DNA of 52,184 bases. It comes from Candidatus Kerfeldbacteria bacterium (lineage in GTDB: Bacteria; Patescibacteriota; Patescibacteriia; UBA9570). Within the stretch, counting starts at the first letter, position 1, and every line of letters starts with the position of its first letter. Below the pieces are notes generated by a model that was given only the letters and a program-made list of their open reading frames with translations, ran no database searches and was not told the DNA's origin. Both the position numbers and the translations under genes were made by a program. Location of the stretch: positions 1 to 52,184 of the forward strand of contig JACPGK010000024.1 in NCBI GenBank assembly GCA_016182495.1, given 5' to 3'. Below, piece after piece: positions 29,126-47,837 of the stretch.

Positions 29126-30514
29126 ATGTCACTAGCCCATCTTGAACGGTACAGGGTTATTCGCCCTATTACTCCACCGCGCCGGATTTTAGTATCAAAT
29201 ATTCCCTATATTATTACCACCAACGATCGTAATGATATTGTTATTTTGCAAAAGCAATCACTCTATATTGAGCGGGGAGTAATTCAAGCGTTGCTGCCAG
29301 CCAAACAAGATCGTCGTTATCACAAAACCGTAGATGTTATATATAATGCCGGTTTACGCAGTGGCATTGTGGTGACACCTGGTTTAATCAACGCCCATGC
29401 TCACCCACCCATGTATTTGTTGCGCTCAACCACCTTATTAAAAAACGAACATGACACTACGGAACAAGCTTTAGTGTTAGCTCGTCGTATTGAACAGGCT
29501 ATGAGTTTGACTGATCAAACCATTGCCTCTTTAGGCGATTTTACCGAGCAACAAAAAATGGGTACCACTACCGTGTTATCGCATTATCATAGCCCGCAGG
29601 CTACTCGAGCAGCTGCCCAGCAAGCCCATATTCGTTTAGTTGATGCTGTTAGTTTAGCCAGTAAAACCGATCCGGCGGCTAATTTACGTTCAGCGGTACG
29701 AGTGTTAACGACTGGCAATCCTTTAATTCGACCCGGTTTAACTATCCATACGTTGGCGCAGGTTACTCGGTTACAGTTACAGGCGGTACGGCGAGTACTA
29801 CAGCAGCATCGTCAAACTATTTTAACAATCCATTGTGGCGAAACCGCTACTGAAATAGCTGCTTGTGTGGAACGTCATGGTCAACGACCGGTAGCGGTAC
29901 TACATCAAGCTGGTTTACTTGGGCCACGGTTAATTTTGTCGCACGCCGTTCACCTCACGGCCGATGAAATTGCCTTGTTGGTAAAACGGCGAGTTGGCAT
30001 TGTGCATTTGCCCACTTCGAATCGAATTCATCGCTCTGGTCAATTTCAGTGGCCAGAGTTTTTTGCCTGGCGCGGCCATCACCGCATCGCTCTAGGCACC
30101 GATAGTGTGATTTCTAAAAGCAAGCTTGATATTATTTCAGAAGCGTTCCAGAGTAAAATTATGCATCAAGATACAGCTGAACCAATTCACTATACTACCT
30201 TGTTTCGGATGATGACCATTAATGGAGCGCGTATTCTTGGTTTAGAGCACAGTGTCGGCCGAGTGTGGCCTGGGTATCAAGCTGATTTGGCTTTTTGGAA
30301 ACTGAAAGATCGCGACTTTATTCCATTTGATCCGCGTCATCCGGAAACATTGCTTGGTAACATGATTAACCATGCCGGTGGCAATGTCCGTGACTTAATG
30401 GTACACGGTCGGTTTGTTATTTCTAACCGTCGGCATACCTTAGTTGATGAGAGTGCTTTATTGACCCAGTTACAACAGCATCATATCGCTTTGCGCAAAA
30501 GATTAAAACAGTAG
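29126..30514 (+). CDS. Amidohydrolase of the ATZ/TRZ (nucleobase deaminase-like) family
   Basis: The 462-aa protein has the metal-dependent amidohydrolase motifs: HAH at 91-93 in PGLINAHAHPP, IHCGE near residue 235, LSHAVHL near 271 and the aspartate in GTDSV near 329. This set is typical of guanine, cytosine, S-adenosylhomocysteine and triazine deaminases. It is convergent with guaB, with a gap of 7 bases, and near purine genes. A purine-derivative deaminase is a reasonable inference, but substrate is not readable. Confidence 0.75.
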   Translation: MSLAHLERYRVIRPITPPRRILVSNIPYIITTNDRNDIVILQKQSLYIERGVIQALLPAKQDRRYHKTVDVIYNAGLRSGIVVTPGLINAHAHPPMYLLRSTTLLKNEHDTTEQALVLARRIEQAMSLTDQTIASLGDFTEQQKMGTTTVLSHYHSPQATRAAAQQAHIRLVDAVSLASKTDPAANLRSAVRVLTTGNPLIRPGLTIHTLAQVTRLQLQAVRRVLQQHRQTILTIHCGETATEIAACVERHGQRPVAVLHQAGLLGPRLILSHAVHLTADEIALLVKRRVGIVHLPTSNRIHRSGQFQWPEFFAWRGHHRIALGTDSVISKSKLDIISEAFQSKIMHQDTAEPIHYTTLFRMMTINGARILGLEHSVGRVWPGYQADLAFWKLKDRDFIPFDPRHPETLLGNMINHAGGNVRDLMVHGRFVISNRRHTLVDESALLTQLQQHHIALRKRLKQ

Positions 30515-30521
30515 GTCCGTT

Positions 30522-31616
30522 TTACATATTCAAGGTATAATTCGGCGCATCACCAATGTAGGCCAAGCTGTGTGGATGACTTTCACGAATACCGGCATTC
30601 GTCACGCGTACAAATTGGGCTCGGTGCTGCAAGGCTTCAATAGTGGCAGCACCGCAATAGCCTAAACCAGCCCGTAAGCCTCCCAGTAATTGATACACTA
30701 CTTCATCAACCGAACCTTTATACACTACTTTACCAACAATGCCTTCTGGGACTAGTTTTTTTGTTTCAGTAATTGATTCTTGCAGGTAACGATCTTTACT
30801 GCCAAGTTGCATGGCTTCCAGTGAACCCATGCCACGATAAGTTTTAAACTTTTGGCCATGCTGTTCAATCACTTCGCCAGGGGCTTCATCTGTTCCGGCC
30901 AAAGCTCCACCCATCATCACACAATCAGCTCCAGCCGCCAGCGCTTTTACAATATCGCCCGAGTAGCGAATACCGCCATCAGCCACAATTGGTACGCCAT
31001 GCTGATGAGCTTCTTTAGCACACTGCATAATAGCTGTGAGTTGTGGTACACCAATACCAGTCACAATCCGAGTAGTACAAATCGAACCAGGCCCTATCCC
31101 TATTTTAACGGCATCAGCCCCAGCTTTAATTAAATCTCGGGTAGCTTCGGTTGTAGCCACATTGCCACCAATCACATTTAAATTAGGGTAGGTTTTTTTT
31201 AAGTAGGCCACCATCTCCAGTACTCCTTGAGAATGGCCATGGGCACTATCAACCACAATCACATCAACTCGAGCTTCAATTAAGGCTTCGGCCCGACGCC
31301 TGGCTTTATCGCCTACGCTCACGGCAGCTCCAACAGCCAAGCCGGCTTGTTTTACTTTTTTAACATGCTCAACTTGCTTATCGACATCTAAATTTTTATG
31401 AATAATGCCAAGACCGCCTTCTTTGCCCATAGCAATAGCCATAGCCGATTCGGTAACGGTATCCATCGGCGAAGATACCAAGGGAATTTCTAAATGTAGT
31501 TGCTTGGTTAAACGGGTTTGCAAATTAACATCGCGCGGGAGCACATCTGATTTTTGTGGTATCAGCAGAACATCGTCGAAGGTTAAAGCCTCTGGGAAGG
31601 CAAGCCCATCATGCAT
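30522..31616 (-). CDS. guaB: IMP dehydrogenase lacking CBS domains
   Basis: The 364-aa protein oxidises IMP to XMP, the first committed step to [14 protein letters not shown] is at 11-21, SSPMDTVTE at 48-56, the catalytic C180 lies in [18 protein letters not shown] at 213-221 and the flap near 288-300. The usual CBS (Bateman) pair, about 120 residues, is missing: the chain runs from HVKKVKQ directly to AGLAVGAAV near residue 91. The enzyme therefore lacks the nucleotide-regulated domain. A near-consensus promoter lies 12 bases upstream of the ATG. GMP reductase is less likely given the guaA context. Confidence 0.85.
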
Positions 31617-31628
31617 ATATTAAAAACA

Positions 31629-31657
31629 AGTCTACTCTGATGCAGCGAAACCGTCAA
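31629..31657 (-). promoter_or_regulatory. guaB promoter
   Basis: On the minus strand TTGACG (31652-31657) and TAGACT (31629-31634) are 17 bases apart. The -10 ends 12 bases before the ATG at 31616, so the leader would be about 5 bases. Confidence 0.6.
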
Positions 31658-31660
31658 GCG

Positions 31661-31702
31661 CCTGTCCATTCATTAGTAATCGAGTACTAGTTAATGGACA
31701 GG
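31661..31702. repeat. Inverted repeat upstream of the guaB promoter
   Basis: CCTGTCCATT (31661-31670) and AATGGACAGG (31693-31702) form perfect 10-base arms around a 22-base loop, with an inner AGTA/TACT pair. The repeat ends 3 bases from the guaB -35 box. It could be an operator or part of the end of the upstream minus-strand transcript; there is no T-run for a standard terminator. Confidence 0.6.
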
Positions 31703-31703
31703 G

Positions 31704-31728
31704 AGGAGTGCAATGATAGCATACTCCT
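31704..31728. repeat. Second inverted repeat around an extended -10-like element
   Basis: AGGAGT (31704-31709) and ACTCCT (31723-31728) flank the minus-strand sequence ATGCTATCATT. The same 11-mer is the -10 region of the unknown membrane-protein gene (32252-32262). A second promoter for guaB, covered by an operator, is possible. Confidence 0.4.
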
Positions 31729-31753
31729 GCCAGTCCTCCATAATGTGTTGGCA

Positions 31754-32218
31754 TCAGTTGTTGTCGTCCATGATGTCGGTCGATTCGATGTCATCTTCAT
31801 CCGCTGGTCCGGCGAAGAAAAAAGTATGCCGACGTTCAACGTGATCAAACAGGGCTGGCTTACATAATACCATCAGTTCATCATGCTGAATGGTGGTTTC
31901 AATAAAGCCATGTACCCGTAACCACTGCAGGCCGCGTCGAATATCCGTGCCTGGAGCTACAACCGAGCCTTGGTCGGCTATCTGGTAAAGCTCTTCCCAG
32001 GTCACTATCGAGCGACCTTTGTTGACCACGGTAGTGAGTAGCCAACCAGCTACTAGGTCAGCTTCACCGTGGTGGAAAGTTGTGATCACGGTGATGTCCA
32101 ACGAGCGGTGTAGTTTTTGCCGCCGTTGGTATGTCGATCGAACGAAATCAAACACTACCATTAAACCCATCATTGCCAAAAACAGATAGCAGCCTATGCT
32201 TATGAGCTGCATCAGCAT
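31754..32218 (-). CDS. Membrane-anchored protein of unknown function with winged-helix-like domain
   Basis: I do not recognise this 154-aa protein. One hydrophobic segment (about residues 4-25) is followed by a basic stretch and a soluble domain. Residues about 50-125 look like a winged helix (WEELYQIAD, RRGLQWLRVHGFIE, then a beta pair). The C-terminus is acidic (PADEDDIESTDIMDDNN). It is the only gene where I see a strong Shine-Dalgarno sequence (GGAGGT, 6 bases before ATG). It lies between guaB and the divergent purine operon, so a membrane-linked regulatory role is possible but speculative. Confidence 0.6.
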   Translation of the reverse strand: MLMQLISIGCYLFLAMMGLMVVFDFVRSTYQRRQKLHRSLDITVITTFHHGEADLVAGWLLTTVVNKGRSIVTWEELYQIADQGSVVAPGTDIRRGLQWLRVHGFIETTIQHDELMVLCKPALFDHVERRHTFFFAGPADEDDIESTDIMDDNN

Positions 32219-32224
32219 GTGATT

Positions 32225-32261
32225 ACCTCCGTTGGTTCACAGGCTAGGTTGAATGATAGCA
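32225..32261 (-). promoter_or_regulatory. Promoter and ribosome-binding site of the 154-aa membrane protein gene
   Basis: The minus strand has an extended -10 TGC-TATCAT (32253-32261) and a GGAGGT ribosome-binding site (32225-32230), 6 bases before the ATG at 32218. The leader would be about 28 bases. This contrasts with the leaderless genes around it. Confidence 0.6.
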
Positions 32262-32266
32262 TGTAC

Positions 32267-32295
32267 TTCACATTTTTTTAGCATTGTGCTATAAA
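32267..32295 (+). promoter_or_regulatory. Promoter of the purine operon (folD)
   Basis: TTCACA (32267-32272) and TATAAA (32290-32295) are 17 bases apart, and the -10 has a TGC extension. Transcription should start near 32302. The sequence TTGTGCTATA is shared with the purB and antiporter promoters. It is divergent from the 154-aa protein promoter. Confidence 0.65.
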
Positions 32296-32312
32296 TACAT
32301 GAGGATACTTCA

Positions 32313-32333
32313 CCCCGGAAACGGGGATTTTTT
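32313..32333 (+). terminator. Terminator-like hairpin in the folD leader (possible attenuator)
   Basis: CCCCG-GAAA-CGGGG (32313-32326) is a perfect 5-bp stem closed by a GNRA tetraloop, then one A and six T (32328-32333). It lies within the predicted 50-base leader, between the promoter and the folD ATG. This placement suggests early termination control of the whole purine operon rather than the end of a gene. Confidence 0.6.
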
Positions 32334-32352
32334 CTTCCCAATAACTACTATT

Positions 32353-33210
32353 ATGGCCACTATCGTCGACGGACACGCCATTGCCCAACACATTTATCGC
32401 CGACTTGCTCATCAAGTACCGTTTTTAAAAAAACGCGGCTATACTCCAAAACTTGGAGTTATTTTAGTCGGCCGCGACCAAGCATCGCATACCTATGTCC
32501 GTAAAAAAGGTGAAGCCGCCCGCCGCAGTGGGCTTGAGTTTTTGTTAAAAACGTTACCAGCCAGTGTTTCTACCAAGCAACTGATTATCACCATTCAGCA
32601 ACTCCAACAGCCGCGTTATCATCTGACTGGCTTAATTGTGCAATTGCCTTTACCCAAACAGGTGAATACTGGCAAAGTGCTCGAAGCCATTGATCCGCAG
32701 TTAGACGTTGATTGTTTAACCCAAACCAATCTTGGTAAATTAATTACCGGCAGTTACTGGATTGAACCACCCACTCCCGGAGCAATTTTATCTATCCTGA
32801 AAGCCCATCATATTCGTTTAGTTGGCCAGCGCATAGTACTGATTGGCGCTGGCGCTTTAGTTGGGCGGCCATTAGCCAACATGTTGTTTCATGAACAAGC
32901 CACTGTTACCGTATTAAATCGTGCCACGGTGTCACTAGCGCGTTACACCAAAACTGCCGATATTATTATTACCGGCGTGGGTCAACATAATCTGCTCACT
33001 GGCGCAATGCTTAAACCAGGCGTGGTAGTGATGGATGCTGGGGTGTCGTTTGTGGCTGGCAAAATGTACGGTGATATCAATTTTGCCAGTGTGGTAAAAA
33101 AAGCTAAACTGGTTACTCCTACACCAGGTGGAGTAGGGCCTTTAACCGTAGCCAAATTAATTGAAAACACAGTAAAATGTGCTCGTAAACTATCTAACAG
33201 TTCAATCTAG
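32353..33210 (+). CDS. folD: Methylenetetrahydrofolate dehydrogenase/cyclohydrolase
   Basis: The 285-aa protein interconverts methylene-, methenyl- and 10-formyl-tetrahydrofolate. The catalytic lysine region is YVRKKGEAARRSG; VQLPLPKQ, the NADP-site segment VLIGAGALVGRPLANML and TPTPGGVGPLTVAKL complete the family signature. I start at ATG 32353 (MATIVDG) by family alignment. An in-frame ATG at 32299 would add 18 residues encoded by the leader hairpin. As the first gene of the purine operon it can supply 10-formyl-THF for PurN and PurH. Confidence 0.92.
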   Translation: MATIVDGHAIAQHIYRRLAHQVPFLKKRGYTPKLGVILVGRDQASHTYVRKKGEAARRSGLEFLLKTLPASVSTKQLIITIQQLQQPRYHLTGLIVQLPLPKQVNTGKVLEAIDPQLDVDCLTQTNLGKLITGSYWIEPPTPGAILSILKAHHIRLVGQRIVLIGAGALVGRPLANMLFHEQATVTVLNRATVSLARYTKTADIIITGVGQHNLLTGAMLKPGVVVMDAGVSFVAGKMYGDINFASVVKKAKLVTPTPGGVGPLTVAKLIENTVKCARKLSNSSI

Positions 33211-33215
33211 CGCTT

Positions 33216-34532
33216 ATGTCCAAACGTTCAACTTTTAAACCACAAACTGTCATGGTGATCGGCGCTCAATGGGGCGACGAAGGTAAAGGTAAAATCATTG
33301 ACTATCTCACCTCAACAGTTGATTATGTGGTGCGATTTCAAGGCGGTAACAACGCTGGACACACGGTGGTAGTTGATGGAGTAGTCCATAAATTACATCT
33401 CATTCCCTCCGGCGTGCTGTACCCTAAAACGCGCATTGTGCTTGGCAATGGCATGGTGATTGATCCGGAAGTACTACTATCGGAGATGGCCAATTTTGAA
33501 ACTAAGGGCTTTAAACTCAACTTACTTATTTCTGAACGGGCTCATGTGATTTTTCCATTTCATATTATGATGGATGGCATGATTGATGAATACAAAGGCA
33601 CACTTGGGGCTGGCACTACCCGCCGTGGGATTGGCCCAGCTTATGCTGATAAAGCCGAACGGTTTGGTATTCGGATGATTGATTTACTCGATCAGCGTAT
33701 TTTTAAAGAAAAGTTTGATCAGTTATTCGATTTGAAAAAAAATACTTTTCGATGTTTGTATGGCCAACGAATGAATCTAAACAAAAATGAAATTTTTCGC
33801 ACCTATCTTAATTATGGTAAAAAATTACGACTTTATATTGGTGATGTATCACTGGAAGTAAACCGGGCCATCGCCGCCGGTAAAAAAATATTGTTTGAAG
33901 GAGCGCAAGGTACCATGTTAGATAACGATCATGGCGCTTATCCCCATACCACTTCATCCAACACCGTGGCTGGAGCGGTGTGTACCGGCGTTGGAGTTGG
34001 ACCAAACCGGATTGGCGACATTATTGGGGTAGTGAAAGCCTATTTATCGCGAGTTGGTGCTGGCCCCATTCCGACCGAAGCCAAAGGTCAACTCGGTACC
34101 TACCTGCGTGAACGCGGGCAGGAATATGGTACTACCACCGGTCGACCACGCCGCTGTGGTTGGGTTGATTTAGTGCAGTTGCGCTATGCTTGTCGGATTA
34201 ATGGTTTAAGCAGTTTAGCTATTACCAAAATTGATGTGTTAGGCGGTTTAAAATCAATTCCGGTGGCTGTAAAATACCGCTATAAAACGACTACGCTCAC
34301 CGAATTGCCAGCCGATTTAAACGTTGTACGGCATTGTAAACCAATTTATAAAACATTGCCGGGCTGGAAAAATCTGACTGATTCAGATTTTACCAACATT
34401 ATTAAAAAAGGCTATACAGCTTTACCGCCTCGCATGCGTGACTATATGAAATTTATTGCTGATCAAACCGCCACCCCCATTAGTTTGGTATCGGTTGGCG
34501 CTGAACGACGGGCTACCATTCGAGTACAGTAA
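33216..34532 (+). CDS. purA: Adenylosuccinate synthetase
   Basis: The 438-aa enzyme joins IMP and aspartate with GTP to form adenylosuccinate. GAQWGDEGKGK (residues 16-26) is the GTP loop with the catalytic aspartate. NNAGHTVV near 46-53, the TTRRGIGPAYADK block near 134-146 and TTTGRPRRCGWVD near 306-318 are also present. It follows folD by 5 bases with no ribosome-binding site. Product adenylosuccinate goes to PurB in the same operon. Confidence 0.95.
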   Translation: MSKRSTFKPQTVMVIGAQWGDEGKGKIIDYLTSTVDYVVRFQGGNNAGHTVVVDGVVHKLHLIPSGVLYPKTRIVLGNGMVIDPEVLLSEMANFETKGFKLNLLISERAHVIFPFHIMMDGMIDEYKGTLGAGTTRRGIGPAYADKAERFGIRMIDLLDQRIFKEKFDQLFDLKKNTFRCLYGQRMNLNKNEIFRTYLNYGKKLRLYIGDVSLEVNRAIAAGKKILFEGAQGTMLDNDHGAYPHTTSSNTVAGAVCTGVGVGPNRIGDIIGVVKAYLSRVGAGPIPTEAKGQLGTYLRERGQEYGTTTGRPRRCGWVDLVQLRYACRINGLSSLAITKIDVLGGLKSIPVAVKYRYKTTTLTELPADLNVVRHCKPIYKTLPGWKNLTDSDFTNIIKKGYTALPPRMRDYMKFIADQTATPISLVSVGAERRATIRVQ

Positions 34533-34535
34533 AGT

Positions 34536-36884
34536 ATGGCCGAATTGGTTTTTGAATTTTCCAAACTATCCGATCAAGCCGTAACTGACTTGTTGGTTCA
34601 ATACAGTATTGGTTTAACTGTAGCCGAGGCTCGGCGTTTGGAAACCGATATTTTGAAACGACCAATCACTCTTACCGAAGCCATTGCCTTTGGCATTGAA
34701 GGTAGTGAACACACCTCGTATCGTTCCAGTAAAAAATATTTAAGCGCATTTTACACCCAAGGTCCACATGTGGTGGTTGGTCCGGGTGAAGATGCTGGCG
34801 TGGTGTGGCTTGATCAAGTAGGCGATCAGCACTATTGTTTAGTGGTAGCACATGAATCCCATAATCATCCCTCACAGGTGGTACCCTACGAAGGGGCGGC
34901 TACTGGTGTAGGCGGAATTGTCCGTGATGTAGTGTGCATGGGTGCCAAAGTAGTTGCCATCGCCGATCCGTTACGTTTTGGTAGTAGTGATCTCAATAAA
35001 ACCAAATGGATTAGTAGTGGCGTGGTCGCTGGCATTGGCGGATATGGCAATCCATTGGGCATCCCTACTTTGGCGGGCGATGTTTTTTTTAATGAATCCT
35101 ACAATAACAATTGTTTGGTCAATGTGGCCGCTTTAGGTATAGTTGCGCAAAACGATATTATTCATTCGCGCGCTCCAGCTCACGCCGAGGGTTATCATTA
35201 TATTATTGTCGGTAAACCCACCGACCATAGTGGTTTTGGCGGGGCGGCTTTTTCTTCTGTAGAACTCAACGAAGCTGATCGCGAGGTCAACAAAAGTGCA
35301 GTGCAAGAACCCAATGCTTTTTTAGAGCGACACCTACTGTTAGCCACCTATGATTTATTTAATGTATTGAAACAGCAAGGGTTGTTGGCCGAAGTAGGTT
35401 TTAAAGATCTGGGTGCTGGCGGAATACTATGCGCTACTGTTGAATTGGCCGATGCCGGCGGTTATGGCGCTAAAATTGATTTGGATACAGTACCAGTTGG
35501 CGTACCAAATTTGGCGTCGGTTGTTAAATTATGCGCTGAAACGCAAGAACGGTTTATGTGGGTAGCTTCACCCCGAGCCAGCGCAGTGATTTTGAAACAT
35601 TATAACGAAACGTGGGATTTACCGAATGTATCTGTTGGTGCCCAAGCGGCGGTGATTGGTACCGTGCAAGCCGGTAATTATCAAGTGTTTGATCACGGTG
35701 AAAAAATTTTTGATGCTCCATCAGCCACGGTGGTAGCTGGCTTACGCTATGATCGTCCGGTACAAGCTCCCCGCACGACGTTGCAGGAACCAGCTATCTG
35801 TGATGCTCCAAATTTAGAACAAGCTATTATGGCGGTGCTGGCGCATCCGGCTGTGGCTTGTAAAAAACCGATCTATGAAAAGTTTGATAAAAATGTGCAA
35901 GGCCTGGTAGCAATTGAAGCTGGTTTGGCCGATGCCGGCGTGCTGGCCCCGTTACTTGATTACGGTTCCACAGTAGGCGTGGCCTTAAGTGTGGATGGTA
36001 ATCCGCGCTATGGAAAAATTTCACCCTATTGGCAAGGGGCCAATGCGGTGGTTGAAAGTATGCGCAATGTGGCGGCGGTGGGAGCGATACCGTGGTGTTT
36101 AACAGATTGTTTGAATTACGGCAATCCAGAAAAGCCAGAACAAATGTGGGAATTTGTTGAAGGGGTCCGTGGCATTGCTGCCGCTGCTCAAGCTATTCAT
36201 GTAAAACGTTATGATAACGCTCCGGTACCGATTGTATCAGGCAATGTATCACTGTATAACCAGTCAGCCGAAGGGAGTATTAATCCCAGTGGTATCGTTG
36301 CTTGTATTGGCCGTTTAACCGATGTGACCAATGCGGTGACGTTTGATTTTATTCAGCCCGGTAACTGGATAGCCATGGTGGGTGAACGCAAGAATGAATT
36401 AGGCGGGTCGGTGTGGTATGAATTATCTAACACCTATGGAGCCAATGTTCCCCAACCAGATTTTGTTCAGGTTGAACGAGAAATTTTTTTTATGACTGAT
36501 GCCATTGAACAAGGCCTAGTACCAACCTGCCATGATATTAGCGACGGCGGCTTGATAGTCACGTTGGCTGAAATGTGTTTTGGTGGGCGTGGCGAATTAC
36601 GCACTGGTGTACAAATTGATAGTGCAGCTATTCCGGGCCAAGGGTTAAGCTTGACCCAAAAGTTGTTTTCCGAAACCGGTGGATTTGTATTTGAGGTTGA
36701 TCCACGCAACTGGACGGCAGTACAACGCCTGGCCGAACAGCGGGGGGTGACGATTACGGTGATTGGAAAAATCATGGCTAACGAACAATGTATTATTACC
36801 CAAGACAAACAGCCAATTGTATCATTAACCATTGGTGCTCTGGCTGATGTTTGGTTACAGGGAGTGCGCCGAGCGCTAGTATAA
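34536..36884 (+). CDS. purL: Phosphoribosylformylglycinamidine synthase, large subunit (small-type PurL)
   Basis: The 782-aa protein is the ATP-dependent synthetase half of FGAM synthase. ESHNHPSQVVPYEGAATGVGG (108-128) is the signature, and SDGGL near residue 670 is in the second half. At this length it is the small type that needs separate PurQ glutaminase and PurS bridging subunits, which are supplied here as one fused protein four genes downstream. It starts 3 bases after purA. Confidence 0.95.
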   Translation: MAELVFEFSKLSDQAVTDLLVQYSIGLTVAEARRLETDILKRPITLTEAIAFGIEGSEHTSYRSSKKYLSAFYTQGPHVVVGPGEDAGVVWLDQVGDQHYCLVVAHESHNHPSQVVPYEGAATGVGGIVRDVVCMGAKVVAIADPLRFGSSDLNKTKWISSGVVAGIGGYGNPLGIPTLAGDVFFNESYNNNCLVNVAALGIVAQNDIIHSRAPAHAEGYHYIIVGKPTDHSGFGGAAFSSVELNEADREVNKSAVQEPNAFLERHLLLATYDLFNVLKQQGLLAEVGFKDLGAGGILCATVELADAGGYGAKIDLDTVPVGVPNLASVVKLCAETQERFMWVASPRASAVILKHYNETWDLPNVSVGAQAAVIGTVQAGNYQVFDHGEKIFDAPSATVVAGLRYDRPVQAPRTTLQEPAICDAPNLEQAIMAVLAHPAVACKKPIYEKFDKNVQGLVAIEAGLADAGVLAPLLDYGSTVGVALSVDGNPRYGKISPYWQGANAVVESMRNVAAVGAIPWCLTDCLNYGNPEKPEQMWEFVEGVRGIAAAAQAIHVKRYDNAPVPIVSGNVSLYNQSAEGSINPSGIVACIGRLTDVTNAVTFDFIQPGNWIAMVGERKNELGGSVWYELSNTYGANVPQPDFVQVEREIFFMTDAIEQGLVPTCHDISDGGLIVTLAEMCFGGRGELRTGVQIDSAAIPGQGLSLTQKLFSETGGFVFEVDPRNWTAVQRLAEQRGVTITVIGKIMANEQCIITQDKQPIVSLTIGALADVWLQGVRRALV

Positions 36885-36886
36885 CT

Positions 36887-37768
36887 ATGCTTAAAATTCG
36901 AGGCAACATTCTTAGACTCACTGGTGCTCGACCCACTCGGCAACAATTAGTGCAGGCCATCGTAGCCATGTATCGAGTAGCCATTACTGAACTACCAGCC
37001 GATGTTACTACTGCCTTACGCCGTGCCCGTCAGCACGAAACTAACCCTCGAGCCAAATATGTATTAAACATGATGTTAAAAAATATCGATTTGGCTAAAA
37101 CCGAAACTCGTCCTTTATGTCAAGATACCGGTATACCGTTAGTGTATGTGCAATATCAAAGTCGTCAGTACAAACAGCTTGAACTAAAACGAATAATTAA
37201 AGATGCTACCACTCTGGCAACTCGTCAGGTACCATTACGAGCCAATGCCTTCGATATTGTTCAAGGTAAAGTGATTGGTAACTACCCAGTGATTTATTGT
37301 AAAGAAACGCCCGATACATCCAGCATTCAACTGTTACTGAAAGGTGGTGGCTCCGAAAATGTCTCCCGTGTTTATCAATTACCCGATACTACCTTAGGAG
37401 CCGAACGAGATTTTGCCGGCATTGAGAAATGTATTCTCGATACCATGATTAAAGCGCAGGGTCGTGGCTGTCCACCATATAGTATTGGTGCAGCCGTTTG
37501 TGGCAGTATGGAAGAAGCCAGTTACCGCGCTAAAAATCGTCATCTGCTGTTACTGAACCAGCATAATCCTAATCCAAAACTAGCAGCCTTTGAGCGGCGT
37601 TTATTAAAGAAAATTAATGCCCTTGGTATTGGCCCGATGGGCGTAGGCGGAAAAACCACCGCCTTGGCTGTTAAATTTACTACTCGTTACGTGCATCCGG
37701 CCTCATGGTTTGTAGGGGTATCGGTTGGTTGCTGGAGTATGCGCCGAACCACATTACATTTACCATAA
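36887..37768 (+). CDS. Class I fumarate hydratase, alpha subunit
   Basis: The 293-aa protein is the N-terminal part of an iron-sulfur class I fumarase or tartrate dehydratase. Cluster cysteines fit C78 in LCQDTGIP, C195 in GRGCPPYS and C282 in GCWSMRR. GVGGKTTALAVK (253-264) is typical. With the beta subunit it would hydrate fumarate to malate. I start at ATG 36887, 2 bases after the purL stop. Its position beside malic enzyme and in an operon with purB indicates use of PurB-derived fumarate. Confidence 0.85.
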   Translation: MLKIRGNILRLTGARPTRQQLVQAIVAMYRVAITELPADVTTALRRARQHETNPRAKYVLNMMLKNIDLAKTETRPLCQDTGIPLVYVQYQSRQYKQLELKRIIKDATTLATRQVPLRANAFDIVQGKVIGNYPVIYCKETPDTSSIQLLLKGGGSENVSRVYQLPDTTLGAERDFAGIEKCILDTMIKAQGRGCPPYSIGAAVCGSMEEASYRAKNRHLLLLNQHNPNPKLAAFERRLLKKINALGIGPMGVGGKTTALAVKFTTRYVHPASWFVGVSVGCWSMRRTTLHLP

Positions 37769-38331
37769 TGGCTGTTATTAAAATTAACACTCCACCAACT
37801 CTTCAAAGTATTCGCCGCGTACAAGCCGGTGATGAAGTAGTATTTACCGGACGGGTTATGACAGCCCGTGATCGAGCGCATCGTTGGTTGTTGGAACATG
37901 ATTTTAAACCATTACATGGAGCAGTGTTGTATCATTGTGGGCCGATGTATCGTCAAACTGGTAAAACCATAACTATTTTAGCAGCTGGTCCTACCACCAG
38001 TGCTCGGTTTAATCATTTTACGCCACAATTAATTAAGCAATACAACATTCGGGCTATTCTTGGTAAAGGCGGTATGAACGAGACCGTGCGGCGAGCATTC
38101 ATTGGCCAGGGAATGTATTGTGCCGCTATTGGTGGAGCAGCCGTGTACTACGCTCATTGTATTACTGAAGTAGTCAAGGTGTATAAAACTGACTTTGGCA
38201 TGACCGATGCCATTTGGGAATTGGCCGTTAAAAATTTTCCGGTGGTCTGTATGATGGATAGTCGTGGCCGCAGTCTATTTCAAGAAGTAGAAACTGCCTC
38301 AACTGCAGTGTATCAAACTTTCACCACATGA
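37768..38331 (+). CDS. Class I fumarate hydratase, beta subunit
   Basis: The 187-aa protein is the C-terminal domain partner of class I fumarases. TGRVMTARDRAHR, the GPTTSARF segment, GKGGMNE and the GGAAVYYAH stretch match the family. The ATG shares its A with the alpha-subunit stop (TAATG), so the two are coupled. Tartrate dehydratase is an alternative for such two-subunit enzymes, but the purine context favours fumarase. Confidence 0.85.
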   Translation: MAVIKINTPPTLQSIRRVQAGDEVVFTGRVMTARDRAHRWLLEHDFKPLHGAVLYHCGPMYRQTGKTITILAAGPTTSARFNHFTPQLIKQYNIRAILGKGGMNETVRRAFIGQGMYCAAIGGAAVYYAHCITEVVKVYKTDFGMTDAIWELAVKNFPVVCMMDSRGRSLFQEVETASTAVYQTFTT

Positions 38332-39602
38332 AAACCACTGCCGCCTTGCGTTATCATCAACATAAGCCAGCTGGCAAACTATCAATCCAGCCGACGAAGC
38401 CTTGCCGCAGTCAGCGAGATTTGGCTTTAGCCTACACTCCCGGAGTGGCTGAACCAGTACTAGCTATTGCTCGTCAGCCAGCGGCCGCCTGGCAGTATAC
38501 TAATCGTGGAAATTTGGTAGGCGTTATCAGTAATGGTACGGCGGTATTGGGCTTAGGTCGAGTTGGGGCTTTAGCCAGTAAACCAGTGATGGAAGGTAAG
38601 AGTGTGTTGTTCAAACGTTTCGCCGATATTGATGCCTATGATATTGAAGTAGCCTGTACAGCCGCTGACCAATTGGTTGATACCATTGCTCGGTTGGCCC
38701 CTACCTTTGGCGGTATTAATTTAGAAGATATTGCTGCCCCAGATTGTTTTACAATTGAAACAGCTTTACAGCGTCGGCTTGATATTCCGGTGTTTCATGA
38801 TGATCAACACGGTACCGCCATTGTGTCTGGAGCGGCGCTGCTGAATGGTTTGTATATCACTGGCAAGAACATTCAGAATATTACCGTGGTGATTAATGGC
38901 GCTGGAGCCGCTGGCATTCGTTGTGCCGAACATTACGTGCGTTTAGGAGTGCGTCGAAAAAATGTTACGATGTTTGATCGTACTGGTGTCATCCATCACG
39001 ATCGGAGCAATTTGAATCGCTACCAAAAAACCTTTGCTCGGGTTACTCAACCCCGCTTAACCCTAGCCCAAGCTCTGGTTGGTGCCGATGTATTTTTAGG
39101 AGTATCGGTGGGTAATATTGTCAGCCCAGCCATGCTTAAAACAATGGCGGCCCGACCAATTGTGTTGGCCATGGCTAACCCTGATCCTGAAATTTCGTAT
39201 CAGCTCGCCAAACAAAGCCGGCGTGATATACTGGTAGCCACTGGTCGCAGTGATTGCCCCAACCAGGTGAATAATGTGTTGGGATTCCCATTTGTATTTC
39301 GGGGGGCGTTAGACGTGCGCGCTCGGCGCATTACCACAACCATGAAAATAGCAGCCACCTGGGCGTTAGCGCAGCTAGCTCGGCAGCCAGTGCCAGCGAC
39401 AGTATTACAAGCCTACCATCTGAAGCAGTTACGATTTGGCCCTGATTATCTGTTACCAAAACCATTTGATCCACGGTTACTGGTAGTTGTATCTGCTGCA
39501 GTCGCCGCAGCAGCGATCAACGATGGTGTAGCCCAACATCCCGTGCAACTTAAACAGTATCGTCAACACTTAACCACTCTATCACATGCCCTTAACCTAT
39601 AA
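38328..39602 (+). CDS. NAD(P)-dependent malic enzyme
   Basis: The 424-aa protein decarboxylates malate to pyruvate with formation of NAD(P)H. The catalytic tyrosine is Y36 in AYTPGVAEP and the lysine K91 in MEGKSVLFK. The metal site is [11 protein letters not shown], then DDQHGTAIV, and the dinucleotide loop is [12 protein letters not shown]. Cofactor preference cannot be set. It overlaps the fumarase beta gene (ATGA) and purM (17 bases). It would finish the conversion of fumarate to pyruvate. Confidence 0.9.
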
Positions 39603-40638
39603 AGCTGCCGGTGTCGATGTCGTCGCTGGTAACCAAGCGGTGCGCACGATTGCTCAATTGGTAAAAAAAACTTTTACTCCGAATGTGCTTACTGGAATTG
39701 GCCTATTTGGTTCTCTATTTGATGTATCTGATTTGAAACGTTATCGTCACCCGGTGTTAGTGCAAAGTATTGATGGAGTTGGTACAAAAATGGCGGTGGC
39801 TAAATTGACCAAGCGGTTTGATGTAGTTGGTCATGATATTGTGGCTCATGGCTGTAATGATGTGTTGTGTCAAGGAGCTAAACCACTTAATTTTTTAGAT
39901 TACATTGCTAGCGCACAACTAGATCAGGCCATTGTTAGCCAATTGATTACTGGTATGGCTGATGAATGTGCCCAGTATGGCATAGCCTTAGTTGGTGGCG
40001 AAACTGCCGAAATGCCCGGTACCTATACCGCCGGCGAGTGGGATATTGCTGGCGTGATGCTTGGTGTTGTAGAAAAAGATGCCATTCGGGATGGTTCCAG
40101 CATCGCGGCGGACGATATCGTCATTGGTTTAAGTTCCACTGGCCTGCACACCAATGGTTATTCATTAGCGCGCAAGGTATTTTTTGATCATTTAAGATTA
40201 ACGGTTAACGATACTGTGTCGGAACTGGCTGGTCAAACTATTGGGCAGGCCTTAATGCAACCACATTATAATTACACCACTACGGTGCTACCCTTGTTAG
40301 ATCGCTATACCATTAGTGGCATTGCTCATATTACGGGCGGAGGTTTGGTAGAAAACATCCCTCGTATTTTACCAGCTGGCTTAGATTGCCAAATTACCAA
40401 AGGGAGTTGGCCTAGTGTGCCGATATTTCAGGCCATTCAGCAGCATGGCGCTGTGCCAGAACAAGATATGTACGTCACGTTTAACATGGGCATTGGTCTG
40501 GTATTGGTGGTGCGGCCAAACGACGTTGCTGCGGTAATAGAAAGCCTGGCTCAAGCCAATTCAATTGGATCAAATGGCATAACAGCCACAGTGATTGGAA
40601 AAATTATTCCAGGACAACAGCAAGTATGTTTCGTGTAG
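39586..40638 (+). CDS. purM: Phosphoribosylaminoimidazole (AIR) synthetase
   Basis: The 350-aa enzyme closes FGAM to AIR with ATP. SIDGVGTKMAVA near 62-73, the HGCNDVLCQGAKP segment, VGGETAEMPGTY and the STGLHTNGYSLAR block are diagnostic. It shares the fold of PurL. The gene overlaps malic enzyme upstream and purQ downstream (13 bases). Confidence 0.95.
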   Translation: MPLTYKAAGVDVVAGNQAVRTIAQLVKKTFTPNVLTGIGLFGSLFDVSDLKRYRHPVLVQSIDGVGTKMAVAKLTKRFDVVGHDIVAHGCNDVLCQGAKPLNFLDYIASAQLDQAIVSQLITGMADECAQYGIALVGGETAEMPGTYTAGEWDIAGVMLGVVEKDAIRDGSSIAADDIVIGLSSTGLHTNGYSLARKVFFDHLRLTVNDTVSELAGQTIGQALMQPHYNYTTTVLPLLDRYTISGIAHITGGGLVENIPRILPAGLDCQITKGSWPSVPIFQAIQQHGAVPEQDMYVTFNMGIGLVLVVRPNDVAAVIESLAQANSIGSNGITATVIGKIIPGQQQVCFV

Positions 40639-41906
40639 CGATCATTCTTTTTCCTGGTACTAATTGCGAAGGGGAAACTCGGCGCATGCTGCTCAATGCC
40701 GGCCTCCAAGCCGACTACGTGCGTTGGAATCAGCGCGATCTGGTACCACAGTATGATGCCTATGTACTGCCAGGTGGGTTTGCTTATGAAGATCGTGGCC
40801 GGGCCGGTATTGTGGCTGCCCAAGATCCGATTATGCAGTTGATTAAAACTGAAGCCCAGCATGGCAAACCAGTCATTGGTATTTGTAATGGTTGCCAGGT
40901 ATTAGTGGAAACGGGTTTAATACCAGGGGTCAATGATACCGCCTTGGCTGGAGCCGTAGCCATGAATACTCGAGTGAAAGACGGTAAAATTATTGGCACA
41001 GGATTTTACCATGATCGGGTATATATCGAAACGGTAACACCGAAAGATCGTTGTGCTGTTACTATGGGCCTTGATCACGGTACGGTGTTTCCCGCCACCG
41101 TAGCGAATGGTGAAGGTCGATTTATTTTTCCCACCGATGTATTGTTAGAACTTGAACAACACGATCAAATTATTTTTAAGTACTGCACCAGTACCGGCGT
41201 TATTCTTAATGAATTTCCCACTACTCCAAATGGAGCCATGTGGGGTATTGCCGGATTATGCAACCCGGCTGGTAATGTGGTGGCTTATATGCCACATCCC
41301 GAGCGACATGACACCGGCGTAGAGTTATTTGTGGCCCTACGACGATACCTCGAACAGCCACCAGTCCGCACCCCGTACCAATTGCAGTGGCAATCACCTA
41401 CCAGCGTGATTGAACCGTACCAACCTAATGATAACTGTATGCAATTGTTTGTTGAGTTAGTGATTGCCGATAATACCGCCACAACTATTGAATTGGCTTT
41501 ACGTCAGCGTGGCTTGACAGTACAGGTACATCGTAAAATTCACTGGGAAGTATGGTTGAATAGTAACACCAAGCCAGATACTGCTACCCTCACAACTTTG
41601 GTCCAAACCGGAGAATTGCTCAATACTAATAAAGAGAAATTCAGTAATCACTACCAAGTACCACCGCAAACCTATAGCTTTTTAGTACGCTACAATGATG
41701 ATTACGAAGGCAAAGCCGTAGCCGATACGCTACGTCAACGTTTCAATTTAAACTACGTTGACAATGTGCGCAAAGGGGTATTGTGGGAACTACACTGTCC
41801 CGCCGGCGATGCCCAAAGCCAACTTGCTGAAGTGCAAAAGATTTTACAAACGTATATGTTATATAATCCTTACGCCCAGGAGTGTAAAATTATGTCAACT
41901 GTATGA
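40626..41906 (+). CDS. purQ: PurQ glutaminase fused to two tandem PurS-like domains
   Basis: The 426-aa protein is much longer than PurQ (about 230 aa). Residues 1-245 are the class I glutaminase: C87 in GICNGC, and H224 with E226 in MPHPER. Residues 271-340 and 348-422 each read as a PurS-like domain. LRQRGLTVQVHRKIHWEV and LRQRFNLNYVDNVRKGVLWE align with each other and with the PurS core (GKAV, then VRxGKxxEL). The second copy keeps EGKAVADTLR and is closer to PurS; the first is diverged. PurS works as a dimer linking PurL and PurQ, so this fusion carries the complete set. No separate purS is seen. Confidence 0.85.
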   Translation: MFRVAIILFPGTNCEGETRRMLLNAGLQADYVRWNQRDLVPQYDAYVLPGGFAYEDRGRAGIVAAQDPIMQLIKTEAQHGKPVIGICNGCQVLVETGLIPGVNDTALAGAVAMNTRVKDGKIIGTGFYHDRVYIETVTPKDRCAVTMGLDHGTVFPATVANGEGRFIFPTDVLLELEQHDQIIFKYCTSTGVILNEFPTTPNGAMWGIAGLCNPAGNVVAYMPHPERHDTGVELFVALRRYLEQPPVRTPYQLQWQSPTSVIEPYQPNDNCMQLFVELVIADNTATTIELALRQRGLTVQVHRKIHWEVWLNSNTKPDTATLTTLVQTGELLNTNKEKFSNHYQVPPQTYSFLVRYNDDYEGKAVADTLRQRFNLNYVDNVRKGVLWELHCPAGDAQSQLAEVQKILQTYMLYNPYAQECKIMSTV

Positions 41907-42856
41907 TTGATCGTAACCGCATTCAACAGCAACTGTCGCAGTGTTTAACAGGTACGGATTTTACCCAGCTTGGTAAAAAATATACTGGTAAAGTACGTGA
42001 TACCTATGATCGCGGTGATCAACTGGTGATTATTACTACCGATCGACAATCAGCCTTCGATCGCGTACTGGCCGCTATTCCATTTAAAGGTCAAGTATTG
42101 ACGCAAGTATCACAGTATTGGTTTGAACACACTAGCGATATTATTGCCAATCACTTAATCGCTGTGCCTGACCCTAATGTCATGATTGTAAAAAAGTGTA
42201 CAGTGTTTCCGGTAGAATTTGTGGTGCGTGGATATTTAAGTGGGGTTACCAGTACTTCGGCCTGGACGGCCTATCAAGCGGGGGAACGGAATTTTTGTGG
42301 CACGGTGCTATCCGATGGTCTGATCAAGAATCAACCATTTGTTCGACCAATAATCACGCCCACCACCAAAAGCGATCAGCACGACGAAAAAATTGCTCCC
42401 GCTGAAATTATCAATCGTCAATTAATGACAGCAACGGATTGGGAGTATTGTGCGGCAGTGGCGTTACAATTATTTCAACGCGGTCAAACCATAGCGCAAC
42501 AGCATGGTTTAATTTTGGTGGATACGAAATATGAGTTTGGCAAATTAGCCGATGGCACTATCTTGTTGGTTGACGAAGTGCACACGCCCGATTCATCGCG
42601 CTATTGGTTAGCCGGCACCTATGCCGAACACTTAGCTAATGGTCAGGAACCAGATAATATCGACAAAGAATTTTTACGGTTATGGTTTATGGAGCACTGC
42701 GATCCGTATCACGATGCGGTGTTGCCGCCAGCTCCCACCGAGCTAGTGGTTGAATTATCCAGTCGTTATATTCAATTATTTGAGACTATTACTGGCCAAG
42801 CCTTTCAGTATCCCACCAACCACAATATTATTGATCGTATGCAAAGCCACTTGTGA
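41903..42856 (+). CDS. purC: SAICAR synthetase
   Basis: The 317-aa enzyme joins CAIR and aspartate. KYTGKVRDTYD near 25-35 and RQSAFDR near 51-57 form the ATP-binding part. VEFVVRGYLSG, GLILVDTKYEFG and the LVDEVHTPDSSRYW block match the family. It overlaps purQ by ATGA. Its substrate CAIR requires PurE, which is not in the window. Confidence 0.94.
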   Translation: MIDRNRIQQQLSQCLTGTDFTQLGKKYTGKVRDTYDRGDQLVIITTDRQSAFDRVLAAIPFKGQVLTQVSQYWFEHTSDIIANHLIAVPDPNVMIVKKCTVFPVEFVVRGYLSGVTSTSAWTAYQAGERNFCGTVLSDGLIKNQPFVRPIITPTTKSDQHDEKIAPAEIINRQLMTATDWEYCAAVALQLFQRGQTIAQQHGLILVDTKYEFGKLADGTILLVDEVHTPDSSRYWLAGTYAEHLANGQEPDNIDKEFLRLWFMEHCDPYHDAVLPPAPTELVVELSSRYIQLFETITGQAFQYPTNHNIIDRMQSHL

Positions 42857-43044
42857 CGCGCGATCAAGCCAAACAAAAAATAGAACAGCTGATGGGGCGA
42901 CGTGATGTGATCAAAGCAGAAATCAGTAGTACTCAATTGAATATGATGGCCGAGAAACGTGACGTACAAACCGATCTCCAACGACTACAGCAACGTCTGC
43001 GCTTCATTGATCAAGAATTGGCGCGCCTAAAAAAGTTTTGGTAA
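42853..43044 (+). CDS. Small coiled-coil protein of unknown function
   Basis: The 63-aa protein is predicted to be entirely helical, with heptad-like spacing (IEQLMGRR, LQRLQQRLRFIDQELARL). Its GTG start overlaps the purC stop (GTGA), so it is translationally coupled. I know of no such subunit in purine synthesis. It could be an assembly factor or a fortuitous open frame, but the overlap and the purB start soon afterwards favour a gene. Confidence 0.5.
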   Translation: MTRDQAKQKIEQLMGRRDVIKAEISSTQLNMMAEKRDVQTDLQRLQQRLRFIDQELARLKKFW

Positions 43045-43058
43045 GTCTGGTTTTGTGC

Positions 43059-43064
43059 TATACT
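43059..43064 (+). promoter_or_regulatory. Internal -10 box before purB
   Basis: TTGTGCTATACT (43053-43064) has an extended -10 that ends 9 bases before the purB ATG at 43074. The same 12-mer is the antiporter-uvrB promoter. It would give a leaderless purB-purF-purD-purN-purH transcript in addition to the folD promoter. Confidence 0.6.
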
Positions 43065-43073
43065 ATAGGCCTC

Positions 43074-44450
43074 ATGCCATCACCTAAACGACGCTTGAAC
43101 TCACTCACTGCTCTGTCGCCACTCGACGGACGCTATTGGTCGGAGGTGAACATATTGTCAGATTATTTTTCCGAAGCGGCCTTGTTACGTTATCGGGTTG
43201 ATGTTGAGGTGCGCTATCTAATGGCTTTAAGCCAGCTTCAATTACCACAGTTACGTCGATTCACTAAACGCGAACAGCTCATTCTTCAACGCCTGGTTGA
43301 TAGATTTAATCTTCAGGCTGCCCAGCGCATTAAAAAAATTGAAACCATCACCAAACACGATGTCAAGGCAGTTGAGTATTATCTGAAAGAAAAATTGAAA
43401 AAAACATCATTACGTAATGTGATTGAGTTTATTCATTTTGGACTGACCAGTGAAGATATTAACAACCTAGCGTACAGTGTAATGTTAAGTGATGCTGTGC
43501 GTTTAGTGTATCTACCCAGTCTAATTGATTTAGCCAAACAGCTTAAACAGTTGGCGCGGCGCTATCAAGCCCAGCCAATGTTGAGCTTAACGCACGGTCA
43601 ACCAGCTACGCCCACTACCCTAGGCAAAGAATTGATGGTGTACGTTCAGCGCTTGCAGCGTCAATCGCACAGCTTAAAAACAATCCGCTTACTTGGTAAA
43701 TTTGGTGGCGCCACTGGTAATTGGGCAGCCTTAACGATAGCGTATCCAAAAATAAATTGGCTGCAATTTGCCCAGCGTTTTATTACTGGGCTGGGATTAC
43801 AACCAAATGTAGCCACCACCCAAATTGAATCGCACGATCGTACGGTTGAGTTATATCAAGCCATCATGCGCGTGAATAGTATCGTGAAAGATTTTGATCA
43901 GGATATGTGGCTGTATATCTCACGGGGATTATTCAAGCAGCGTAATATTGCTGGTGAGATTGGTTCCTCGGCGATGCCGCATAAAATCAATCCAATTTAT
44001 TTTGAAAATAGTGAAGGCAACGCTGGCTTAGCCAATAGTTATTGTCAGCATTTCGCGGCCACTCTGCCAATTTCACGCTTACAGCGTGATTTAACTGATA
44101 GTACGTTGTTACGTAACCAAGGAGTGGCTATGGGCCATGCCTGGTTGGCCTTACGTCACGCTAGTCTAGCTGTACAACGAGTGCAACCACAAGCCAGTGC
44201 TATGCTCGCCGAGCTGAACCAGCATTGGGAAGTATTAGCTGAACCAATTCAAACAGTATTACGCAAGTATCAAGTAACCGCCGCTTACGAACAGTTGAAA
44301 GCTGTAACACGCGGTCAACAGTGCGATAAAACTAAACTGCATGCACTGATTGAACGTTTACCAATACCACAATCTGAAAAAATCACCTTACAAGCCTTAC
44401 GGCCCGATACCTATGTGGGTTTATCAAGCACCATAGCCACTGTACAATAA
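43074..44450 (+). CDS. purB: Adenylosuccinate lyase
   Basis: The 458-aa enzyme releases fumarate twice, from SAICAR and from adenylosuccinate. Near the N-terminus is LSPLDGRYW, typical of the E. coli-like PurB. LTHGQPATPTTLGKE and the signature GSSAMPHKINPI (catalytic serine loop) follow. I start at ATG 43074 because an internal -10 box places the transcript start there; a further in-frame start at 43038 overlaps the small coiled-coil gene. Its fumarate is the expected substrate of the fumarase upstream. Confidence 0.94.
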   Translation: MPSPKRRLNSLTALSPLDGRYWSEVNILSDYFSEAALLRYRVDVEVRYLMALSQLQLPQLRRFTKREQLILQRLVDRFNLQAAQRIKKIETITKHDVKAVEYYLKEKLKKTSLRNVIEFIHFGLTSEDINNLAYSVMLSDAVRLVYLPSLIDLAKQLKQLARRYQAQPMLSLTHGQPATPTTLGKELMVYVQRLQRQSHSLKTIRLLGKFGGATGNWAALTIAYPKINWLQFAQRFITGLGLQPNVATTQIESHDRTVELYQAIMRVNSIVKDFDQDMWLYISRGLFKQRNIAGEIGSSAMPHKINPIYFENSEGNAGLANSYCQHFAATLPISRLQRDLTDSTLLRNQGVAMGHAWLALRHASLAVQRVQPQASAMLAELNQHWEVLAEPIQTVLRKYQVTAAYEQLKAVTRGQQCDKTKLHALIERLPIPQSEKITLQALRPDTYVGLSSTIATVQ

Positions 44451-44451
44451 T

Positions 44452-45933
44452 ATGTGTGGAGTTCTTGGCATTTACGGCAAATTAGAAACGGTCATTGCGC
44501 CAGAGCTGTACGATGGCATGATTGCCTTACAACACCGCGGTCACGACGCTTGTGGCATGGTGACCTATGATAAAACCTTCCATACCAAAAAAGGTCTCGG
44601 TTTAGTACGCGATGTTTTCCATCAATCTACCATGAACCGACTCACCGGCAACATGGGGCTAGGCTTTATTCGCTATGCCACCGCTGGTGGTATGTCGCTG
44701 GATGATTCCGCTCCATTTACGGTGCATGCTCCCTATGGTATTAGTATGGTATTTAATGGTAACTTGACCAATTTTTCTAAATTAAAACAGGAGTTACATA
44801 AAAAGGATTTAGTCAGTTTAAACGCCAATAGTGATATCGAGGCTATGTTGCACGTGTTTGCTAAAGAGTTAACTCAACATGTAGGCGAACCCATGCCTAA
44901 AGCTATTTTTGCAACCGTCAAAAAAGTATACCAACGCTGTTTAGGGGCCTATGCCGCTATTACTATCATTGCCGATCACGGTATGGTAGCGTTTCGTGAC
45001 CCTCGAGCCATTCGTCCATTAATGATTGGTCAGCGCGGTCGTGGCAAAAACGTTGAATATATCTTTACCTCCGAATCGGTCATGTTTACGATGCTAGGCT
45101 TTCGTTATATTGATGATGTGAAACCTGGTGAAGCCGTGTTTGTTGATCGTCAACGTCATTTGCATCGCCGAGTGGTGACTCCTGGACAATGGCGGCCATG
45201 CTTATTTGAATATGTCTATTTCGCCAGGCCAGATGCCATTCAAAATAATATCAGTGTATATAAGGCCCGTCTGCGCATGGGTGAAAAATTAGCCGACCGG
45301 TTACGACCATTGTTGCCAACTTTAAAAATTGATGTTGTCATTCCGGCACCATCAACCTCTAACACAGCTGCCTTGGCCTTGGCGCAAAAACTCGGCTTGA
45401 ACTATCGTGAAGGTTTAGTCAAAAATCAATTTATTGGCCGCACTTTTATTATGGCTGGCAATGAACGTCGCAAAAAGTCGGTGCGTCACAAATTAAATCC
45501 GCAGCCATTAGAAATTCGACGCCGTAACGTATTATTAGTTGATGATAGTATTGTTCGCGGTAATACTTCGAGAGAGATTATTAAAATGCTTCGCGAAGCT
45601 GGCGCTAGAAAAGTATATATGGCGGCGGCAGCCCCACCAGTCATTTCACCTTGTGTGTATGGAGTTGATATGCCGACGCGTCAAGAATTGATTGCGAATC
45701 AGGTCAATGGTGGCGGTACCGTTGAAGGCATTCGTAAATTTATTGGTGCTGACTTTTTAATTTATCAAACCATTGAAGATTTAATTGAGGCCGTTCGCAT
45801 TGATAAAGGACCAGTCCGTGAATTTTGTACTGCTTGTTGGACGCGCCGTTACCCTACCCCAGAAGTGAACACAAAAATGTTACGCCAAATCGAAAACGAA
45901 CGTTTAGCCGATGCTAACGCCGCCCACTGTTAA
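44452..45933 (+). CDS. purF: Amidophosphoribosyltransferase
   Basis: The 493-aa enzyme makes phosphoribosylamine from PRPP and glutamine. C2 (MCGVLGIYG) is the nucleophile, directly after the initiator methionine, so no propeptide is needed. The PRPP motif LLVDDSIVRGNTS is at 361-373. C250, C401, C459 and C462 fit the four 4Fe-4S ligands of the Bacillus-type enzyme, which suggests an oxygen-sensitive, cluster-containing form. It starts 1 base after purB. Confidence 0.95.
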   Translation: MCGVLGIYGKLETVIAPELYDGMIALQHRGHDACGMVTYDKTFHTKKGLGLVRDVFHQSTMNRLTGNMGLGFIRYATAGGMSLDDSAPFTVHAPYGISMVFNGNLTNFSKLKQELHKKDLVSLNANSDIEAMLHVFAKELTQHVGEPMPKAIFATVKKVYQRCLGAYAAITIIADHGMVAFRDPRAIRPLMIGQRGRGKNVEYIFTSESVMFTMLGFRYIDDVKPGEAVFVDRQRHLHRRVVTPGQWRPCLFEYVYFARPDAIQNNISVYKARLRMGEKLADRLRPLLPTLKIDVVIPAPSTSNTAALALAQKLGLNYREGLVKNQFIGRTFIMAGNERRKKSVRHKLNPQPLEIRRRNVLLVDDSIVRGNTSREIIKMLREAGARKVYMAAAAPPVISPCVYGVDMPTRQELIANQVNGGGTVEGIRKFIGADFLIYQTIEDLIEAVRIDKGPVREFCTACWTRRYPTPEVNTKMLRQIENERLADANAAHC

Positions 45934-45934
45934 T

Positions 45935-47251: not shown

Positions 47252-47828
47252 GGCTTTGCGATTAGCGGTATTAGGATCAACCAGTGGAACCGATTTAGCC
47301 GCTTTACTTACAGCTCAACAGGCTGGACAATTAACCCCCAGCGCAATTGTGCTTGTTATTTCAAATCGGGCAGAAGCGTATATACTTGAACGCGCTCGCC
47401 AGGCTAACATCGAAACCATTGTGGTGCCAAGTGCTCGGCGGTCGCAAGCCGACTTTGAAGCCGACTTACTCAACGTTTTACAACAGCACCACATTGACTA
47501 CATTTTTTTAATTGGCTTCATGAAAATTTTATCAGCTCATTTCATTGCTCACTTTTCCATGAAAATATTGAATATTCACCCCTCACTGTTGCCCAAATAT
47601 GCTGGAGGCATGAACCTTGACGTGCATCAGCAAGTACTGAATAATAGGGACGCCGAGACTGGTTGCACCTTACATTATGTTACAGCCGATGTTGACGAAG
47701 GTCCTATTGTTGGGCAAGAACGCGTGCCGGTGTTACCCCACGATACTGCAATTACTCTGAAACAGCGCGTTCAACAGGCTGAACAAAAATTATTACTACG
47801 CGCCATCCACCAGCTAACCAATTGTTAA
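47244..47828 (+). CDS. purN: GAR transformylase (10-formyl-THF dependent)
   Basis: The 194-aa protein transfers a formyl group to GAR. The catalytic asparagine and histidine are in LNIHPSLLPKYAGG (near 110-123), and the aspartate is in TADVDEGPIVGQ. Formyl donor could come from FolD at the head of the operon. The start overlaps purD. Confidence 0.92.
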   Translation: MAKALRLAVLGSTSGTDLAALLTAQQAGQLTPSAIVLVISNRAEAYILERARQANIETIVVPSARRSQADFEADLLNVLQQHHIDYIFLIGFMKILSAHFIAHFSMKILNIHPSLLPKYAGGMNLDVHQQVLNNRDAETGCTLHYVTADVDEGPIVGQERVPVLPHDTAITLKQRVQQAEQKLLLRAIHQLTNC

Positions 47829-47837
47829 TTATTATTT

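Follow-up and report, generated by a model that had tools for sequence, protein, structure and literature searches.

A conserved terminator-like hairpin, probably a transcription attenuator, between the promoter and the first gene of a purine operon in Candidatus Kerfeldbacteria

Why should a hairpin resembling an intrinsic terminator lie between the promoter and the first gene of a long purine operon? The question is raised by a contig of a Candidatus Kerfeldbacteria bacterium (JACPGK010000024.1, assembly GCA_016182495.1), whose whole analysed stretch of 52,184 nucleotides is called the window below; it is one contig of its genome (G000), the contigs of which were assembled to 1.30 Mb for our scans. 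Its leader is considered together with those of the three other genera of the family (G001, G002 and G003) and of two more distant genomes (G020 and G351), six leaders altogether. The features of the locus are as follows.

31754–32218, minus strand: divergent open reading frame nearest upstream, without a Pfam family; in relatives a different gene lies upstream
32267–32272, plus strand: −35-like box TTCACA, 17 nt before the −10 (from the sequence)
32287–32295, plus strand: extended −10, TG-C-TATAAA (hexamer 32290–32295); TG and a TATA-like hexamer occur in all six leaders
32302–32310, plus strand: AGGATACTT, the conserved AGGATAYYY box; all six leaders have GGATA 6–7 nt downstream of the −10
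32313–32326, plus strand: putative terminator stem CCCCG-GAAA-CGGGG (sequence, pattern count, fold and covariation)
32328–32333, plus strand: T6 tract; the U-rich tail is found in all six leaders
32353–33210, plus strand: folD, first gene of the operon (PF00763/PF02882); its start matches the starts in relatives
33216–49340, plus strand: purA, purL, two fumarase parts, malic enzyme, purM, purQ/S fusion, purC, purB, purF, purD, purN and purH (open reading frames)

The hairpin and the six T, with A 32327 between them, are exactly as the original prediction had described them, and the neighbour on the other side of the promoter is indeed divergent in the window. Nineteen nucleotides separate the end of the T tract at 32333 from the folD start codon at 32353. 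The promoter is predicted to be a good one of the sigma-70 type; a generic promoter scan missed it because that scan accepts a −10 only if it ends in T. The transcription start is predicted at 32302–32304, which would place the stem about 10 nt downstream, give a leader of about 50 nt from promoter to folD and put the release of RNA near +26 to +32.

The purine operon behind this leader extends over approximately 17 kb, its genes other than folD having been named by resemblance and operon context. The order folD-purA-purL-fum-fum-mae-purM-purQS-purC...purB-purF is identical in G001 and G002, and the contig of G003 stops inside purA. A close purA (E ≤ 1e-100) was found in only 19 of the 381 class genomes sampled. 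The two fumarase parts and the malic enzyme (window 36887–39602) are kept within the operon in G001 and G002 and were not found in G004, a genome of the nearest other family of the same order; they may serve to recycle the fumarate made by PurB. The PurQ-like protein (40626–41906) is 426 aa long and carries a C-terminal extension resembling a fused PurS, as it does in the relatives.

Taken by itself, the fold of the window leader is not significant (z −0.96; 35 of 200 shuffles were equally good). That the hairpin exceeds chance follows instead from the rarity of such structures in the genome, from a pattern that occurs once per genome in front of folD, and from compensated pair changes in a distant purine leader. 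A direct scan independent of gene calls found 40 strong terminator-like hairpins in the 1.30 Mb and 7 in a single first-order Markov shuffle; censuses of leaders based on open reading frames missed folD, whose naive frame starts at 32299. The pattern CCCCGN{3,8}CGGGGATTT has exactly one match per genome in the four genomes of the family, in each case upstream of folD. FolD itself is 66–72% identical to that of the window in the three other genera, and its closest named relative is from Candidatus Kerfeldbacteria (L006). In these genera an extended −10, AGGATA(C/T), (AT)CCCCG-N4-6-CGGGGAT and a T-rich stretch follow one another in the same order, preceded at 16–17 nt by the −35 boxes TTGCCA, TTTACA and TTTACA (TTGACA in G351). 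The genes upstream of the leader vary among the genera and the leader is retained, so that it travels with folD. The hairpin could additionally serve the gene before it in G003, where that gene points the same way as folD and has its end at the promoter. G004 has the purine operon and lacks the leader.

Outside the family, a covariance model of the family leader gave one strong match in the 381 class genomes, in G351 (E 7e-5), and a search for the promoter followed by AGGATAY recovered G351 again together with G020. The latter is the sole genome examined from its order, which is not that of the window; its leader reads TGCTATAGT-CCGTTG-AGGATAC-TTGT-CCCGC-CAAAA-GCGGG-TTTT and stands directly before purA-purC-purE-purK-purB-purF-purD-purN-purH. 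It has no clear −35, a short T tail (TTTTATC) and a stem, CCCGC/GCGGG, that differs from the family stem. The G351 leader (C11, L105) precedes two tandem P-loop kinase-like genes (AAA_17/AAA_18 above the cut-off, DNMK below it), which belong only loosely to nucleotide metabolism. All six leaders have the extended −10, AGGATAYYY, a short spacer, a hairpin with a C-rich 5′ arm and a U-rich tail, with 5–6 T within the 8 nt after the stem.

The leader alignment that the original prediction had called for brought out compensatory changes: both partners are changed in three of the five stem pairs, and 96% of the cells pair. This alignment comprises five leaders and omits G003, which has a 9-nt insertion between the AGGATA box and the stem and whose stem is that of the other family members. 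The covariation score was matched by 1 of 500 shuffles, and structures slid along the same alignment gave none or one both-sided change. In a second scan of the 381 genomes the six leaders scored E ≤ 4e-5 and the next matches, from 5e-4 on, were without the full anatomy; the model was trained on five of the six leaders, so these scores are partly by construction and measure separation from the background, G351 having been found independently by the first model. In a phylum-wide scan for the promoter with AGGATAYYY, 15 other genomes matched, none of them with a comparable hairpin when the matched sequences were read. AGGATA after the −10 also occurs at unrelated promoters, and the box alone is therefore no purine signature. 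The evidence of conservation consists of six instances, four of them from one family.

An unconserved stem had been named in advance as a finding that would speak against attenuation; the stem, its U-rich tail and its position are in fact kept before purine operons in the four family genera as well as in a genome from another order, in support of simple attenuation as first proposed. At the level of sequence, a conserved terminator-like structure is well supported, and we consider that the folD leader is probably a promoter-proximal transcription attenuator acting through an intrinsic terminator. Termination itself, and a read-through that varies with purine supply, are what we infer, the dependence on purines from the position before nucleotide genes. 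Under such a scheme the sigma-70-type promoter would start the operon transcript at or next to AGGAUA, and RNA polymerase would reach the terminator about 10 nt further on; part of the transcripts would be released near +30 as RNAs of about 30 nt, while the remainder would extend into folD and the rest of the operon. The hairpin probably sets the extent to which the operon is read, in a way that fits no known purine switch.

What the attenuator might respond to is narrowed by what the leader has no room for. There is no Rfam match across the window at the gathering score and none at E ≤ 1 in 32220–32420, and with about 10 nt before the stem this argues against any aptamer; the known riboswitches (purine, PRPP or other) are not supported on the same grounds. 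The original prediction had also looked to an antiterminator, and no alternative pairing proved to be conserved across the leaders: GGAU/AUCC pairs weakly in G001, G002, G003 and G020 (there with one wobble) but is absent from both the window and G351, and a 5′ hairpin UGAGG/CUUCA was found in the window only. No leader reading frame fits between the predicted start site and the hairpin. Of the ligand- or protein-controlled switch once suggested, the ligand thus appears unlikely, and a release controlled by a protein or by nucleotides is possible. As the leader can accommodate neither an aptamer nor a leader peptide, the signal would most likely act on the first nucleotides made (choice of start or slippage at GGA, with sensing of ATP or GTP) or through a protein reading the AGGAUAYYY end.

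Termination in leaders does not appear to be foreign to this genome, which raises the prior for a purine attenuator. Several of its strong terminator-like hairpins stand in leaders, those of aspartokinase-like, hisG, ribosomal protein L10-like, dprA, yraN, ftsK-like and DUF559 genes (dprA, yraN and one DUF559 gene have Pfam support; the other names are by resemblance).

Several of these leaders may be described in their own right. On contig C21 of G000 (plus strand, approximately 101505–101630) a leader peptide, MIDRSIQITTTTTTTTSGG, starts 96 nt before a hairpin at 101601 and is followed by this strong terminator and the aspartokinase-like gene, an apparent classical attenuator of the thr type. 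On contig C12 (minus strand) the hisG-like gene at 97282–97920 is preceded by the leader peptide MQLSLIIIHHHRYRRKG and the terminator ACCCGGC-TTA-GCCGGGT, apparently a classical attenuator of the his type. In five further leaders, ATGAGCGC lies near the predicted transcription start and is combined with a GC hairpin and a run of T; the genes that follow are dprA, yraN (UPF0102), an ftsK-like gene, a DUF559 gene and a coiled-coil gene:

C15, 37134–37158, minus strand: ATGAGCGC leader
C7, 34973–35001, minus strand: ATGAGCGC leader
C9, 44005–44029, minus strand: ATGAGCGC leader
C37, 28466–28492, plus strand: ATGAGCGC leader
C26, near 40078 of the reverse complement, minus strand: ATGAGCGC leader

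They perhaps mark a DNA-processing regulon, and ATGAGCGC with a hairpin was not seen in the nine other genomes searched. A kinship of the folD leader with this group (dprA, yraN and others) was considered and rejected, the register after the −10 being different and the group having been found in the window's genome only.

The attenuator may nevertheless be constitutive, cutting the output of the operon by a fixed factor without any signal, which we regard as unlikely though the foremost of the alternatives. Neither a conserved alternative structure nor an aptamer was found, and similar hairpins precede unrelated genes in this genome, both of which speak for it; a weaker promoter, however, would achieve the same, and AGGATAYYY and its spacing are kept over and above the terminator.

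Somewhat less likely still is a specific form of the attenuator that resembles the one of Bacillus subtilis pyrG. Here scarce ATP would stall the polymerase after GG, extra Gs would be added, and the resulting G run would pair with the C run in the 5′ arm of the terminator and lift termination. The six leaders all have GGA at the predicted start and a C-rich 5′ arm, and five of them share the same distance from GG to the stem. When two extra Gs are added, all six give folds of −6.5 to −9.8 kcal/mol for the RNA preceding the 3′ arm; the same addition leaves four other promoter-proximal terminators of this genome above −2.3. However, any G run would pair with a C run, and one of these controls reaches −6.9 with four Gs; the full-length folds prefer the terminator in four of six leaders even with six extra Gs. 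Reiterative attenuators of the pyrG type have three or more Gs in the run at the start. All six leaders here have only two, and it is a G run that governs pyrG of B. subtilis, according to the title of a reference listed in PMC4403831. Folding in the model permits such a scheme without establishing it. We are doubtful that, in these uncultivated Patescibacteria, ATP (or GTP) would be sensed through the first transcribed nucleotides, AGGAUA, in a purine counterpart of pyrG needing no aptamer, protein or ribosome.

A DNA operator, with a repressor bound to the palindrome, to the AGGATAC box or to both, is improbable. Box and stem are nearly invariant within the family, as an operator would be, but the half-sites are spaced by 4–6 nt and, in G003, 9 extra bases separate the box from the stem. 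The changes in the stem are paired, the T tail is retained and no PurBox lies nearby; the loop lengths (4, 4, 5, 6 and 5) are variable, which fits an RNA better than a rigid DNA operator. We give even less credit to a hairpin that would stabilise the mRNA or act as a translation standby site without terminating. Its place near the predicted 5′ end would suit that role, but the stem has a U-rich tail in six of six leaders, about 10 unpaired nucleotides precede it, and its distance to the start codon differs widely among the relatives. Control by a leader peptide or by translation from ATG 32299 can be practically dismissed: the frame is open to folD in the window, as originally noted, but the proposed coupling finds no support in the relatives, two of which (G003 and G001) have a stop in this frame and the third (G002) no such ATG. 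In the window the ATG follows the −10 box by 3 nt, which probably puts it before the transcription start.

The attenuator that we favour may be set against the systems already known. To our knowledge, gene regulation in Patescibacteria is little explored, and these six leaders, for which a consensus can be given, offer a concrete case that is cheap to test. PurR–PurBox repression in B. subtilis covers the purine operon and folD (PMC4223553); the target genes are alike, whereas no site resembling the PurBox consensus was found in the folD region at 29552–34480. The pur operon of B. subtilis has a guanine riboswitch in its leader, acting by transcription termination (PMC4223553), as is predicted for the folD leader, which in contrast is only about 50 nt long and has neither an aptamer nor an Rfam match. 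With the thr and his attenuators it has in common a terminator between promoter and first gene, but its short stretch from start to hairpin leaves no room for a reading frame. The pyrG leader of B. subtilis is short, with a G at the start and a terminator near it, in front of a nucleotide gene. The folD leader has this same arrangement (relative to its predicted start), although it has GG followed by A where pyrG has a longer G run followed by C, belongs to a purine operon, and would use slippage only hypothetically. The pyrG attenuator works by CTP-sensitive reiterative transcription (mechanism summarised in PMC4448216 and PMC4403831); if read-through at folD is nucleotide-dependent, attenuation without ribosome or riboswitch would extend from pyrimidine to purine genes.
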